Shown in pieces: positions 1 to 35,442 of a stretch of DNA of 46,369 bases (positions within the stretch are counted from its first letter, which is position 1; every line of letters begins with the position of its first letter). The notes below the pieces were generated by a model that saw only the letters and a list, made by a program, of their open reading frames with translations, did not search any database and was not told where the DNA came from. Origin of the DNA: Actinomycetes bacterium (GTDB lineage Bacteria > Actinomycetota > Thermoleophilia > Gaiellales > F1-60-MAGs149); NCBI GenBank assembly GCA_025360225.1, contig JANYCN010000053.1, forward strand, positions 1 through 46,369, in the 5' to 3' direction. Position numbers and translations under genes: made by a program.

Positions 1-17
1 CCAGCACGCCCGCGATC

Positions 18-60
18 AGCAAGCCCTGCGCGACGCGCAACGCTGACAATCACACCATTA
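18..60 (-). repeat. Dispersed intergenic repeat, copy A (short, internally deleted)
   Basis: Positions 18-44 are identical over 27 nt to the reverse complement of 35153-35179 in copy E. They are followed directly by GACAATCACACCATTA (45-60), which resembles the family end GACAATCAGACCACTA. Copy E has about 35 further bases between these two parts, so this copy looks like a deletion derivative. It lies downstream of the molybdenum hydroxylase operon, which reads leftward toward it. The window edge may cut off more of it. Confidence 0.6.
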
Positions 61-4566: not shown

Positions 4567-4640
4567 CCGCGTCCACCCCGACGTGACCCGCGCGGGAGCC
4601 GTACCGGACGCGCAAAGGGGTTTGGCGGGGGCCATGCGCG

Positions 4641-4757
4641 GGTCGCGGGACGCTCCCGCGAAGCCCGTTGGCTCCGCCACGCGACGGGTCGTGGAGCGAA
4701 CAAGCGCAGACGATCCAGGCAGGCGGATAACCACGTCATCTCACAATCAGACCAGTA
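4641..4757 (-). repeat. Dispersed intergenic repeat, copy B
   Basis: Read on the minus strand it starts at 4757 with TACTGGTCTGATTGTGAGAT and continues with the conserved block TGCCTGGATCGTC and GCGCTTGT, as in copies D, E and F. It then has a hairpin-forming segment where the other copies have the CCACCC/GGGTGG stem. The leftward boundary is approximate because the copies diverge there. The stretch 4567-4640 holds no gene and may be its diverged remainder. The copy fills the gap between convergent genes. Confidence 0.75.
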
Positions 4758-22224: not shown

Positions 22225-22430
22225 CCGCTGCCTGTGGTCTACGCGGCGGAGCGCGCCGACCACGGGCAGCTACGGCGACCGCCGGGTTCCGCGAGAATTC
22301 GCGGAACCCGCGGGCTTCGCAGGCTCGGCGGGCGCCGCTTGTTCTTGCCACCAGCAAGCCCTGCGCGACGCCCGCCGCCCCCGCTCGCTCCAGCCACGAC
22401 CAGCAGCGCGCCACTTCGGCGCCGCACGAC
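22225..22430 (+). repeat. Dispersed intergenic repeat, copy C, between atpA and atpG
   Basis: AGCAAGCCCTGCGCGACGC (22353-22371) and CCCGCTCGCTCCAG (22380-22393) match the reverse complement of 35139-35179 in copy E. GGGCTTCGC and GCGCCGCTTG just upstream also align with copy E. The terminal TGGTCTGATTGT is not present, so this copy is partial or diverged and its edges are approximate. It accounts for most of the 261-nt gap inside the ATP synthase operon, which has no gene. Confidence 0.65.
22283..22310 (+). other. Perfect 12-bp hairpin with GAAT tetraloop inside the atp operon
   Basis: CGGGTTCCGCGA (22283-22294) pairs with TCGCGGAACCCG (22299-22310). The stem resembles the terminator arm GGGTTCCG at 4762. 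With no U-run it could be a partial terminator, an RNase processing site or a stabilising stem between atpA and atpG. Confidence 0.6.
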
Positions 22431-32112: not shown

Positions 32113-32862
32113 TCAGTGCGGATCAGCCCAGTACTCAGAGGTCGCGACGCCGGTGAAGCCGGCGCGGGCGTAGATCCGTCTCGCCTCGTCGCTCCCGGGG
32201 GTGAGGACGCAGGTGTGCGCGCCGGCGCCGAACGCCGCCGACGCGGCCGCGGCCGTGGCTGCGCCTCCGATGCCGCGTCCACGGAAGGCCGCGACGCAGA
32301 AGACACCGCGGATCTCGGACACGCCCGTCGCGATCGGCGACCAGGCCGCGCCGCCGACGATCTCGCCGCCTTCCCGGACGACGACCGCGCCGCCGCCACC
32401 TGCTCGCGGGTCGCGGAGCGGGCCGTCGGTGGCCGGCTCGTCGCGGAACGCCCGGGCCTGCCGTGTCCGCCAGGTGCTCAGGTCAGCATCGCCGATCGCC
32501 GCCACCGCGAGCCCGTCGACAGACGGTTGCAGCAGCGCAGGCGCCTCGACAGCCAGCAACGGCGTCGAGAGCTCCCGCTCCATCCCGGCCGAAGCGAGGA
32601 GGTCACGCAGGCCCGGCGCGTGCTCGTGCAGGTACTCGAACCGCGGCAGCCGGTCGCGCTCGCGGAACGCCTGGCGGAGCGCGTCGAGCGTCTCGCGTCT
32701 GATGTCCCGGACGTCGCCGGTCGGGATCGCGTAGTTCAGGTAGCGCAGCGGATCGACAGGGTCGAGGAAGGCCGTGAACGGACCGACGGCAACGACCTCC
32801 CGTCCCGGAGCGGCGACGTCGATCAGGAACCTCTGCAGGTGTTCGACCGAGGACTCGATCAT
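32113..32862 (-). CDS. GNAT family N-acetyltransferase
   Basis: This 249-aa protein has a C-terminal GNAT domain with motif A FRGRGIGGAATAAA (acetyl-CoA pyrophosphate loop R-x-x-G-x-G) and the later EARRIYARAGFTGV, which matches the end of the fold. The first 120 residues form a separate, less conserved domain, as in FR47-like or two-domain GNATs. The substrate is unknown. GTG at 32877 would also be in frame, but it lies within the hairpin of repeat copy D, so I prefer ATG at 32862. It converges with atpC. Confidence 0.78.
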   Translation of the reverse strand: MIESSVEHLQRFLIDVAAPGREVVAVGPFTAFLDPVDPLRYLNYAIPTGDVRDIRRETLDALRQAFRERDRLPRFEYLHEHAPGLRDLLASAGMERELSTPLLAVEAPALLQPSVDGLAVAAIGDADLSTWRTRQARAFRDEPATDGPLRDPRAGGGGAVVVREGGEIVGGAAWSPIATGVSEIRGVFCVAAFRGRGIGGAATAAAASAAFGAGAHTCVLTPGSDEARRIYARAGFTGVATSEYWADPH

Positions 32863-32872
32863 CGCACGGTAC

Positions 32873-32955
32873 GCCACCCGTTGGGTGGCTGCGTCAGCCA
32901 GCGCAGGACGATCCAGGCGCGCGAATGACCACGCTCTCTGACAATCAGACCACTC
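32873..32955 (-). repeat. Dispersed intergenic repeat, copy D
   Basis: Read on the minus strand from 32955 it begins GAGTGGTCTGATTGTCAGAG, then CGTGGTCATTCG, GCCTGGATCGTCCTGCGCT and a GCCACCC/GGGTGGC hairpin, in the same order as copies E and F. It fills the gap between the GNAT and amylase genes, both on the minus strand, and touches the GNAT start. Confidence 0.8.
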
Positions 32956-32968
32956 GCCTGCTCGGAGC

Positions 32969-35131
32969 CTAACCGAGCGGGCGGACCGTCAGCCCGACGA
33001 CCCTGCTGACGCGGATCGTGCCGGCCGTCGAGCGGAAGATCGCGACGAGCGACACACGCTCGTTCCTCGCGAAACGCGCAGGATCGAGGTAGCCACGGTA
33101 CGGGGACGACGGATCAGTCGCGAGGCGTGTCCACGTTCCCGTAGCGTGCTTGACCGCGAAGGTCACCGTGCCCGGGTCTGTCCCGGCGACGGTCGCGGTC
33201 GCCACGTAGAGCGGGTTGAAGGTATCCTCGGCAACGGCGATGGCGACGCGCTTCGGCGCCTTGCCGCTCAGGTGGCGTGCTGACCGGAGCACGACCGATC
33301 CGATCGCCGGGATGCGTAGCGACACGACGCCGGCAGCGGTCGACCGTGCGCTCGACCCGCCGAGGAGTGACGACCAGTTCGACGACGGCGTGACCGACGC
33401 CACCTGCACCATCGCCGGGGAGGATCCTGCGTTGAACGCCTCGAGGTACTCCCGGTGCGACGCGCTATCGATGCGGGAGAGCACGATCACGCCCTTCCGG
33501 GCGTAGCGCACGATCGTCGTCCCGACGGCGAACACGGGGTAGGACGCCCGGAGCGCGTTGAGGCGCGCGATGCGCAATCCGATCGGGTTGCGCGTGTCGG
33601 CAAACGACGAGCCAGAGCCGATCGCCGGAGCGTCGACCCGTTCCTCGTTCTGCCACGCCGAGACGTGCGTCGCGAACAGGTCCTGCCGCGCCGCGGCGTC
33701 ACCGCCGCTCCCCATCAGCCCGAACTCATCACCGTACATGACGACCGGTGTGCCGCGTAGAAGCAGCAGCATGTCAGTTGCTAGCAGCACTCGCGCTGCC
33801 AGGGTTGCGCCGCGGGAGCTCGACTGCGCTGCAACCATCAACGCCGCTCGGCCCATGTCGTGGTTGCCGAGGAACGTCACCGGCACGTATGGTGTCCCGG
33901 ACGGGTTCTGAAAGAGATCGTCCGACTCAAGCCGGTCTGCGACCGCGAGCGCCCCAGTCGCCGAGCCTGCGAGGTGCGTCATGGCGTCCTGCAGCGGGAA
34001 GTCGAGAACGTTCGGCAGCCCACGTGTGCGGGAGAACTGGGCGAGCACGTTCTCGTCCTTCTCGTAGTCCTCGCCGAACGCCTGAAAGCTCTTGATACCC
34101 GCAGCCTTGGCGGCCACGATGATCTGCGGCATGAACCGCCCAAAGAAGGCGCGGTCGACGTGCTTCGCGGTATCGATCCGGAAGCCGTCGACGTGGAAGC
34201 GCGTGATCCACGACGCGTAGACGGCAGCAAGACCGTTCACGACCCGTGGCTGCTCCGTGAAGAGGTCGTCGAGACCGAAGAAGTCGCCCTGCTCGTAGCA
34301 GGTATCGCTGCAGGCGCCCCACGAGATGTCTCCGCGGTTGTGGTACACCGTAACGTCGTTGAGCCAGGATGGTGCGCGCGTCATCCCGGTTGGGATCGTT
34401 GCCACGTAGGGAAACGAGCTCGCGTTCAGGCACGGGAAGACGGCCCACGACGTGTAGACGGAGAGGTCGAAGGTGGATCCATCACAGGCGTGGTACGGCG
34501 ACGTCGACGGCTCGACGAACGAGCCTCCCGGCGACAGCGTCGTGACGTCGGCCGTGTGGTTCACGACGATGTCGAGGTACACGCGCATCCCGATCGAGTG
34601 CGCGCACGTCACCAGCGCGGCGAAGTCCGCCTCGGTCCCGAGGTGCCGGTCGACCGTCGTAAAGTCCGTGATCCAGTACCCGTGGTACGCGGCCGACTCG
34701 CCCTGCACCCAGCGTTGGCCGAACGGCGGCGTCAGCCAAAGTCCCGTGAAGCCGAGGTTCTTGATCCGCTGCAGGCCGGTCTGTGGATCGGTGCACCCAC
34801 CGCGAAGGCCGACGAGGTCGCCGCCGTGGAACCAGGCCGGATCGGTCGGATCGAACCCGTTTGCATAGCGGTTTCCTGCAGTGCCTGCTCGATCGTTCGT
34901 TGGATCGCCATTCGCGTAGCGGTCGGTGACCGCGAAGTAGATGCGCTCGGTCGCCAGCGGTGGGGGTGCGATCGGCACCGAGAGCGCGCGAGCGACCGCG
35001 GCCGACGGCGGTGCCGTGCCTGACGCGCGCGCAACGGTGGGTGCGGCGGCCGTCGTGCTGAGGACGACCGCAAAGGCCAGCAGCGCCGCGAGACGCGCGT
35101 TAGTGGTGCGATTGGGAAATGGAGCGTTCAT
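32969..35131 (-). CDS. Secreted GH13 alpha-amylase family protein
   Basis: This 720-aa protein cleaves alpha-glucans. An N-terminal signal peptide (about 1-37, LAALLAFAVVLSTTAAA, cleaved near ARA-SG) sends it out of the cell. GH13 regions: DIVVNH (187-192), GFRIDTAKH with nucleophile Asp320, FGED with acid/base Glu354, and NHD (423-425) with the transition-state Asp. A beta-domain follows near 560-620 and an extra C-terminal module with HATGTWTR is seen. The frame extends upstream to 35296, but those codons are repeat E. The ATG at 35131 begins the signal peptide; it lacks a clear ribosome-binding site and codons 4-11 overlap the left end of repeat E. Confidence 0.93.
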   Translation of the reverse strand: MNAPFPNRTTNARLAALLAFAVVLSTTAAAPTVARASGTAPPSAAVARALSVPIAPPPLATERIYFAVTDRYANGDPTNDRAGTAGNRYANGFDPTDPAWFHGGDLVGLRGGCTDPQTGLQRIKNLGFTGLWLTPPFGQRWVQGESAAYHGYWITDFTTVDRHLGTEADFAALVTCAHSIGMRVYLDIVVNHTADVTTLSPGGSFVEPSTSPYHACDGSTFDLSVYTSWAVFPCLNASSFPYVATIPTGMTRAPSWLNDVTVYHNRGDISWGACSDTCYEQGDFFGLDDLFTEQPRVVNGLAAVYASWITRFHVDGFRIDTAKHVDRAFFGRFMPQIIVAAKAAGIKSFQAFGEDYEKDENVLAQFSRTRGLPNVLDFPLQDAMTHLAGSATGALAVADRLESDDLFQNPSGTPYVPVTFLGNHDMGRAALMVAAQSSSRGATLAARVLLATDMLLLLRGTPVVMYGDEFGLMGSGGDAAARQDLFATHVSAWQNEERVDAPAIGSGSSFADTRNPIGLRIARLNALRASYPVFAVGTTIVRYARKGVIVLSRIDSASHREYLEAFNAGSSPAMVQVASVTPSSNWSSLLGGSSARSTAAGVVSLRIPAIGSVVLRSARHLSGKAPKRVAIAVAEDTFNPLYVATATVAGTDPGTVTFAVKHATGTWTRLATDPSSPYRGYLDPARFARNERVSLVAIFRSTAGTIRVSRVVGLTVRPLG

Positions 35132-35351
35132 TGGGTGTCTGGAGCGAGCGGGAGCGTTGCGCGTCGCGCAGGGCTTGCTAAGTGCAAGCGGCGCGCGACG
35201 TTCCCGCGAAGCCCACGATCCGGCACGCAGAGCGGGCCGGGGCGCGGTCGCCGGAGCTGAGCGGCGTAGCCACCCGACGGGTGGCAGAGCCGACAAGCGC
35301 AGGACGATCCAGGCAGTCGAATGACCACGCCATTTGACAATCAGACCACTA
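35101..35351 (-). repeat. Dispersed intergenic repeat, copy E (longest, with possible terminal inverted repeats)
   Basis: Read on the minus strand from 35351 it starts TAGTGGTCTGATTGTC. Positions 35351-35243 match copy F at 107 of 109 bases. The other end (35101-35122, plus strand TAGTGGTGCGATTGGGAAAT) resembles the start in inverted orientation with about 19 of 22 matches, suggesting a 251-bp element with terminal inverted repeats. It contains a GCCACCC/GGGTGGC hairpin (35269-35285) and the segment shared with copies A and C (35139-35179). It has no coding capacity. Confidence 0.8.
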
Positions 35352-35361
35352 GCGCTACGCT
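35334..35361 (+). promoter_or_regulatory. Promoter of tRNA-Val, -35 box inside repeat E
   Basis: TTGACA (35334-35339, consensus) lies in the end of repeat E and TACGCT (35356-35361) just outside it, 16 bp apart. The tRNA starts 9 nt after the -10 box. In other repeat copies the same place reads CTGACA or TCACAA, so the consensus -35 is specific to this copy. Confidence 0.6.
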
Positions 35362-35369
35362 GATGGGAG

Positions 35370-35442
35370 GGGCGGTTAGCTCAGCTGGTAGAGCGCCTGC
35401 TTTACACGCAGGATGTCGTCGGTTCGAGCCCGGCACCGCCCA
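35370..35442 (+). tRNA. tRNA-Val (anticodon UAC)
   Basis: The 73-nt cloverleaf is complete: acceptor GGGCGGT/ACCGCCC, D arm GCTC/GAGC, anticodon stem CCTGC/GCAGG with loop TTTACAC (anticodon TAC), five-base variable loop, T arm GTCGG/CCGGC with TTCGAGC, and discriminator A. CCA is not encoded. It reads GUA and other Val codons. Confidence 0.97.

Follow-up and report, generated by a model that had tools for sequence, protein, structure and literature searches.

Several short bacterial repeats and insertion elements bear on the locus described here, as far as the available parts of the cited papers describe them. RUP of Streptococcus pneumoniae is present in ~110 copies with TA junctions, and an IS630-family transposase acting in trans is believed to mobilize it (PMC2229807, PMC3049150). 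In Yersinia pestis, a copy of the miniature element (MITE) RU-2 forms part of the signal peptide of YPO1552 (PMC2759123, PMC2229807), and BOX repeats of S. pneumoniae contribute to expressed ORFs with the start in the repeat and the stop beyond it, without a good Shine-Dalgarno sequence (PMC3049150). At the other end of a gene, QMITE2 of Coxiella burnetii supplies the C-terminal residues in one strain (PMC5896051). ISY100 inserts into TA, which is duplicated (PMC2170065).

We analyzed a stretch of 46,369 nucleotides (the window), which is one whole contig of a draft actinomycete genome (3,237,251 bases in 89 contigs, 96.9% complete; hereafter the own genome) and both starts and finishes inside copies of one repeat. 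An earlier note, made from the letters alone, had proposed that copy E of this repeat is a 251-bp MITE whose end forms the N-terminus of a secreted amylase. The features of the window are collected in Table 1. We conclude that copy E is a MITE that was probably moved in trans by an enzyme of the IS630/Tc1-mariner type, with its end probably donating the start of the amylase gene. The pattern extends beyond the earlier note in the more than 100 copies, the CTAG junctions, the stop-codon positions, and the related family in a second genus.

Table 1. Repeat copies and neighboring features, in positions of the window
Feature	Position	Strand	Remark
Copy A, terminal part of a copy that the contig start truncates	1-60	-	Second end at 47-60
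Copy B, diverged and truncated	4635-4757	+	Adjacent to the glutamine synthetase gene
Copy C, diverged, with the core only	22304-22396	-	Between two ORFs; inverted repeat with copy E, 54 nt at 83%
Copy D, right-end fragment	32873-32955	+	ORF 32116-32928 ends inside
Putatively secreted alpha-amylase gene, 720 aa, PF00128	32969-35131	-	ATG and codons 1-10 in copy E
Copy E, 251-bp non-autonomous element (MITE)	35101-35351	+	Internally shortened form of the 316-bp family
Left terminal inverted repeat of copy E	35101-35122	+	Outward (- strand), encodes codons 4-10 of the amylase plus a single base of codon 11
Core hairpin of copy E	35136-35222	+	Compensatory changes in the second genus (pair counts, helices 4-6); extent from a covariance model built with copy E
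Small inner hairpin of copy E, GCCACCCGACGGGTGGC	35269-35285	+	
Right terminal inverted repeat of copy E	35330-35351	-	Followed by G, forming CTAG
tRNA-Val(TAC)	35370-35442	+	18 bp beyond the right end of copy E
Copy F, cut by the contig end	46261-46369	-	Its CTAG contains the TAG stop of TypA/BipA

The two ends of copy E, TAGTGGTGCGATTGGGAAATGG on the left and, inverted, TAGTGGTCTGATTGTCAAATGG on the right, are identical at 18 of 22 positions; the earlier note had recognized this inverted pair with a count of about 19 of 22, and the second end in copy A, which it had cited in support, is real. A search of the own genome for the 14-mer end TAGTGGTSYGATTG with at most one mismatch yielded 128 forward and 127 reverse matches versus none for a reversed control, and the copy number of the element is roughly 120-130 (half of the 255 ends). 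BLAST of copy E against the same genome gave at least 76 matches, with 40 of 271 first-look candidates scored. We assembled the ends into 60 pairs, three of which reused an end of another pair and were dropped, leaving 57 distinct two-ended copies; in 51 of these, both ends were within two mismatches of the motif. Copies lacking the second inverted terminus had been named in advance as evidence against a MITE. All 57 have both termini, and a further 24 ends, located away from sequence edges, had no recognized partner within 420 bp, which indicates that truncated copies are present too. Element lengths ranged from 73 to 321 bp, most often 316 bp (12 of the 57 pairs), and copy E lacks ~65 bp of inner hairpins compared with the 316-bp form.

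Conservation over 197 distinct ends was 93% for the C before TAG, 93% for T, 81% for A, and 97% for G. Outside this boundary, position -2 was weakly conserved (G, 51%) and no conservation was found farther out. Because conservation begins at the C just outside, the element coordinates are right to the base. The proposed boundaries of copy E were thus correct, but 251 bp is not the standard size of the family.

Copy E has a GC content of 66% and is predicted to fold on itself at -146 kcal/mol, and two 316-bp copies at -219 and -226 kcal/mol. No transposase ORF was found inside copy E, in agreement with the earlier reading, and the element has no coding capacity of its own. Copy E is a MITE-type element: the family is short and non-coding with terminal inverted repeats, its copies are dispersed, and one orthologous spacer is filled in one genome and empty in another. 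This spacer contains an element in a genome of another genus of the same family (G003), whereas the own genome has ~57 bp there without it (not resolved to the base). REP/BIME sequences with a RAYT (Y1) transposase are described, in the part of the source available, as palindromes of 20-40 bp with a GTAG or CGTC tag (PMC3733652). The present elements fall outside this description, with lengths of 73-321 bp, terminal inverted repeats, and CTAG junctions. In Rfam 15, at the gathering score, only a tRNA was matched in the window, and the element corresponded to no known RNA family; searches of plasmids, phages, and viral contigs (the last with an exact 23-base pattern) found no copy.

The junctions are of the type C/TA...TA/G, and the TA suspected earlier at the element ends is present. 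CTAG stood at both junctions in 25 of the 57 pairs, at one in 21, and at neither in 11, that is, at one or more in 46 pairs, and it was absent from one or both in 32. The commonest substitute was CTCG, found at 14% of ends, usually through replacement of A by C on the inward strand and in many cases at just one of the two ends; this bias is explained neither by TA duplication nor by ordinary mutation. Copy E has TTAG on the left and CTAG on the right. At one locus (L055), two neighboring copies lie in tandem with one common CTAG, and neighboring copies on contig C47 possibly also do so. All junctions were read from filled sites, without an exact empty site, and from filled sites alone TA duplication is indistinguishable from CTAG duplication. 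In the mechanism that we propose, an IS630/Tc1-mariner-type transposase would cut at the ends and insert the element into the TA of CTAG, duplicating TA. With G as its first base and C as its last, the element would rebuild CTAG at both junctions, and a gene ending in C-TAG would therefore keep its stop.

The amylase ORF is intact and matches the alpha-amylase domain at profile positions 3-359 of 446; the gene order at copy E is BNR-repeat gene, tRNA-Val, amylase. From ATG 35131, the N-terminus reads MNAPFPNRTT (element) followed by NARLAALLAFAVVLSTTAAAPTVARA (gene), the element contributing the ATG, codons 1-10, and a single base of codon 11. The earlier note had placed the left end within codons 4-11 and suggested that the insertion supplied the start codon; the 22-bp repeat does cover these codons, and the ATG also lies inside the element. 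The left end is located just upstream of the core of the signal peptide, as judged by eye, and its outward frame is open (ATG AAC GC. CCA ... ACC ACT A). When the flanks of copy E were joined, the amylase frame contained no ATG, GTG, or TTG back to the stop. Within the flank, the first in-frame start to be met is a GTG at 123 bp, which lies beyond the signal-peptide region. ATG 35131 is the only candidate start that gives a complete signal peptide, and ribosomes would start there on a protein that is presumably exported. Another copy with the same left-end variant, at L055, also reads ATG-AAC-GC.-CCA outward, suggesting that the start codon probably came with the element. No Shine-Dalgarno-like sequence was visible in the 30 bases upstream of the ATG, as had been remarked before, and the scan found no promoter for the amylase.

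We compared the N-terminus with those of 82 orthologous amylase loci, since distant orthologs with the same first 11 codons had been named as evidence against an insertion. None aligned with the same first ten residues; 69 of the 82 alignments begin beyond residue 30, which puts their N-termini outside the comparison, and the only five that reach residues 1-11 resemble signal peptides of unrelated origin. Identity to the named amylase loci, all of them distant, is 37-44%. The end motif was present at only one ortholog locus (L197), far from the 5' end of the gene.

It is also conceivable that no insertion took place at the amylase and that recombination between two copies, by deletion or inversion, placed the gene behind an element end. 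The joined flanks hold no in-frame start and the junctions differ (TTAG versus CTAG), so that the two flanks may have separate origins, and more than 100 copies offer ample substrate for such an event. On the other hand, copy E is a complete element, and an altered junction base is common, as seen in the 32 of 57 pairs without CTAG at one or both junctions. We regard recombination as a reasonable possibility, though on balance not the probable one. A different start, or a silent gene, seems unlikely. The ORF is open as far as TTG 35296 inside the element, and the lack of a visible ribosome-binding site or promoter would suit translation from this TTG, translation from the GTG 123 bp downstream, or no expression at all. 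Starting at the TTG, however, would place 55 extra residues, ten of them arginine, ahead of the signal peptide, the GTG lies beyond the signal peptide, and the ORF is intact with a catalytic-domain match. Donation of ATG 35131 by an inserted copy E is the reading that we prefer.

The earlier note had also suggested looking for a transposase gene flanked by the same repeats. No such gene was found in the own assembly among the three families searched, namely PF13683, PF13358, and PF01609, the last of which we take to be 'IS5-like'. The IS630 transposase (PF13358, DDE_3) had no hits in this 96.9% complete draft, so that the partner of the MITE can only be inferred. The two hits of PF13683 and three hits of PF01609 had no flanking end motif (at most two mismatches), except for that of a host copy on contig C26 (L194), where a PF01609 transposase fragment lies within the inner region of the element. 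This nested fragment ends in TGAAACGGACTC, which differs from the MITE end. A transposase in a longer relative was considered and rejected: two element-end motifs on contig C47 (L148, 1638-2734), one of them matching over no more than 13-14 bp, enclose a 1097-bp span with a gene for an AlkZ-like DNA glycosylase. The last codons of this gene are read from a terminal inverted repeat, and its stop lies beyond the element.

At one locus of G003 (L074), the CTAG that borders an element has received an insertion of an IS630-type gene (DDE_3 match). We examined 31 IS630 loci, consisting of 30 fetched from a class-wide DDE_3 search plus L074, with DDE_3 matches that have no locus falling outside the sample. 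CTAG-flanked inverted ends enclosing the DDE_3 match were found in 13 of them, whereas the other 18 gave no CTAG-flanked pair and were excluded from the end comparison. Over positions 4-14, the 26 ends of these 13 elements matched the MITE end at a mean of 5.8 of 11 positions (best, 9 of 11), whereas the background mean, from 170 further CTAG sites of these loci, was 2.9 of 11; the end search carried a scoring bonus for CTAG pairs, and the two ends of one element are not independent. IS630 itself reportedly prefers CTAG, a finding attributed to Tenzen and Ohtsubo in 1991. These comparisons suggest that an IS630/Tc1-mariner transposase is likely the mobilizer of the MITE.

A mobilizer of another family, for example an IS5-type enzyme duplicating the four bases CTAG/YTAR, appears improbable to us, with the reservation that the end survey in the class covered IS630-type elements only. 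MITEPsy1 of Pseudomonas syringae, tentatively related to IS5, duplicates CTAG or YTAA according to the part of the report available (PMC3189936), TA and CTAG duplication look alike without empty sites, and one element copy does contain the PF01609 fragment. The end of that fragment is nevertheless unlike the MITE end, whereas the IS630 elements of the class have both target and end motif in common with the MITE. An enzyme of the IS630/Tc1-mariner type is still the likely candidate.

Across the family, start-codon donation looks like an accident. We rejected it as a family habit, since 8 of 28 outward-reading genes were in frame with the ATG/GTG at +30, about as many as chance would give with one frame in three. 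A further 14 genes have a start inside the element, but for them the flank offers one already at 6-76 bp from the junction, versus 123 bp for the amylase. A script test for flanks with no start in the first 150 bp flagged no copy, copy E included, owing to its GTG at 123 bp.

Stop codons were the more frequent contact. Genes at the junctions were called by a codon-usage score trained on eight window ORFs, not by a gene finder; 73 of the 197 ends had no clear gene and 4 had too short a flank. Of the 92 ends met by a gene, 40 have the junction TAG as the stop, 38 have the stop ahead of the junction, 7 have it 8 bases further inside the element (a TGA in the consensus), and 7 have it elsewhere inside. 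The same position was seen in G003, where the stop is at the junction in 8 of the 12 ends met by a gene. No orientation bias was found at the stop codons (14 left ends, 16 right ends, and 10 unassigned). For TypA, whose stop coincides with the CTAG of copy F, we compared 24 of the 29 other-genome loci (L332-L336 excluded). The orthologs end within -1 to +5 residues of the window TypA in 23 of 24 cases, the other one being cut by a contig end, and none of the 23 has an element within 30 bases after the gene. As these orthologs finish at about the same residue, the junction TAG can be the native end of the gene.

CTAG itself is scarce, with 136 occurrences in a 411-kb sample versus 366 expected. 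The 111 free CTAG sites of this sample included 20 scored as stop codons and 28 inside genes; the sites at element ends were stops in 8 of 25 cases, and 8 of the 28 CTAG sites scored as stops carry an element end. When the 40 stops among ~97 elements were compared with the 20 among 83 free non-genic CTAG sites, the odds ratio was 2.2 (p = 0.018), an approximate value because ends were halved to estimate the number of elements. The excess of element ends at stops is therefore modest and approximate, and the scarcity of CTAG together with the removal of harmful insertions accounts for much of the stop-codon positioning. Insertions at C-TAG stops would be nearly harmless, as the first base G would restore TAG after TA duplication. 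As a speculation to which we give little credence at present, the family may use C-TAG stops as a safe niche, with its branched core serving as a folded 3' end for the mRNA and its outward ATG frames occasionally founding N-termini.

Among 60 relatives compared, clear relatives of the element were found only in G003 (68-86% identity over the matched parts), and two further genomes gave short, weak matches. A search for the end motif in 399 genomes of the class gave matches in 29, with more than two only in the own genome, G003 (22), and G186 (5). The matches in G186 belong to a different element. The reversed control matched at a similar level, which suggests that the single matches elsewhere are due to chance. 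The G186 repeat (L183) is short and palindromic (CTAGTGGTCTGTCCCG...) and occurs in tandem with a common CTAG; its presence suggests that more CTAG-targeting MITE families exist in the class.

The fold was analyzed in an alignment of 7 copies from G003 and 17 from the own genome, with the structure predicted on the same alignment. The 70 predicted pairs were standard pairs in 95.4% of cases versus 89.5% after shuffling. Two-sided changes occurred in 21 of the 70 pairs versus a shuffled mean of 15.1, with none of 500 shuffles as high, and the covariation score was 0.226 versus 0.129 for shuffled and at most 0.072 for slid versions. The number of further pair types was not unusual (53 versus 50.1 shuffled; 66 of 500 shuffles as high), and most of the sequence change in the alignment separates just two groups, the two genera. 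A covariance model of the core hairpin, run with stricter filters on 299 genomes and scoring 14 candidates in each, gave matches in G003 and the own genome only. The model includes copy C, and its match there arises by construction; no end motif was found at copy C, which is probably an old, decayed insertion.

That the repeats are a structured RNA or DNA module kept by the host (a terminator or an mRNA-stabilizing 3' element) and not parasitic copies would fit the fold retained across two genera, with pairing, two-sided changes, and covariation above shuffled levels, and the many copies directly 3' of stop codons, but we find it very improbable: the measure of further pair types is ordinary, the alignment tested also served to derive the structure and its changes fall mostly between two groups, element positions differ between the two genera where compared, short versions lack the core, covariation of the ends could also result from a transposase binding both of them, and no terminator-like signal was found at copy E.

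The MITE also affects the assembly. In the own genome, 20 other contigs were read from their start, and 12 of them have an element end in the first 240 bases, indicating that the element probably causes much of the fragmentation of the draft. Contigs C15 and C24 (L022 and L127) share an identical starting flank and element end at the same position, which is probably an assembly branch at a copy that was left unmerged.

At the right end of copy E, the region 35334-35361 contains TTGACA and, 16 bp on in the flank, TACGCT, 8 bp before the tRNA-Val gene. A hybrid promoter created by the element is possible, as judged from these motifs, and the pair was not among the matches of a strict promoter scan at copy E. 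Outward hybrid promoters were rejected as a family habit: TANNNT at the right spacing was absent from all 12 scorable 'away' ends and all 77 'toward' ends, and was seen at 2 of the 61 others.

The locus offers a testable case in which the end of a mobile element has apparently taken over the start and the first signal-peptide residues of a conserved secreted enzyme. A further suggestion from it is the way in which an element targeting TA/CTAG can reach more than 100 copies in a GC-rich genome with little harm, since CTAG is scarce, many CTAG sites are stops, and insertion would restore the stop. For annotators, gene starts and ends beside copies need checking.

In mode of movement, the closest family is RUP, an IS630-Spn1-type MITE. 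As described in the available portions of the sources, RUP resembles the present family in its short length, inverted ends, TA junctions, ends base-paired in the fold, and copy number. It differs in being 107 bp long and AT-rich, with a presumed partner IS that is common in S. pneumoniae, whereas the present family is 73-321 bp long and GC-rich, has CTAG junctions and a branched core, and yielded no partner among the transposase families searched. IS630 and ISY100, as far as described, share the insertion into TA but carry their own transposase, in contrast to this MITE. Among the gene contacts, MITE-derived starts, signal peptides, and protein parts are already known. YPO1552, in the text available, is a putative protein of 144 residues, whereas here a large conserved enzyme would receive its start and residues 1-10 from the element. 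BOX, unlike this family, is modular, and its ORFs match only hypothetical proteins in the portion of the report at hand. The MITE-encoded C-terminal residues of QMITE2 are comparable to those of the AlkZ-like gene, but the accessible part of that paper describes one gene, whereas junction stop codons are the commonest gene contact here. A literature search of partial coverage turned up no recognizable description of this family or of stop-codon restoration by insertion. Set beside these systems, the family has two unusual traits, namely a branched core that is common to two genera and its positions at stop codons.
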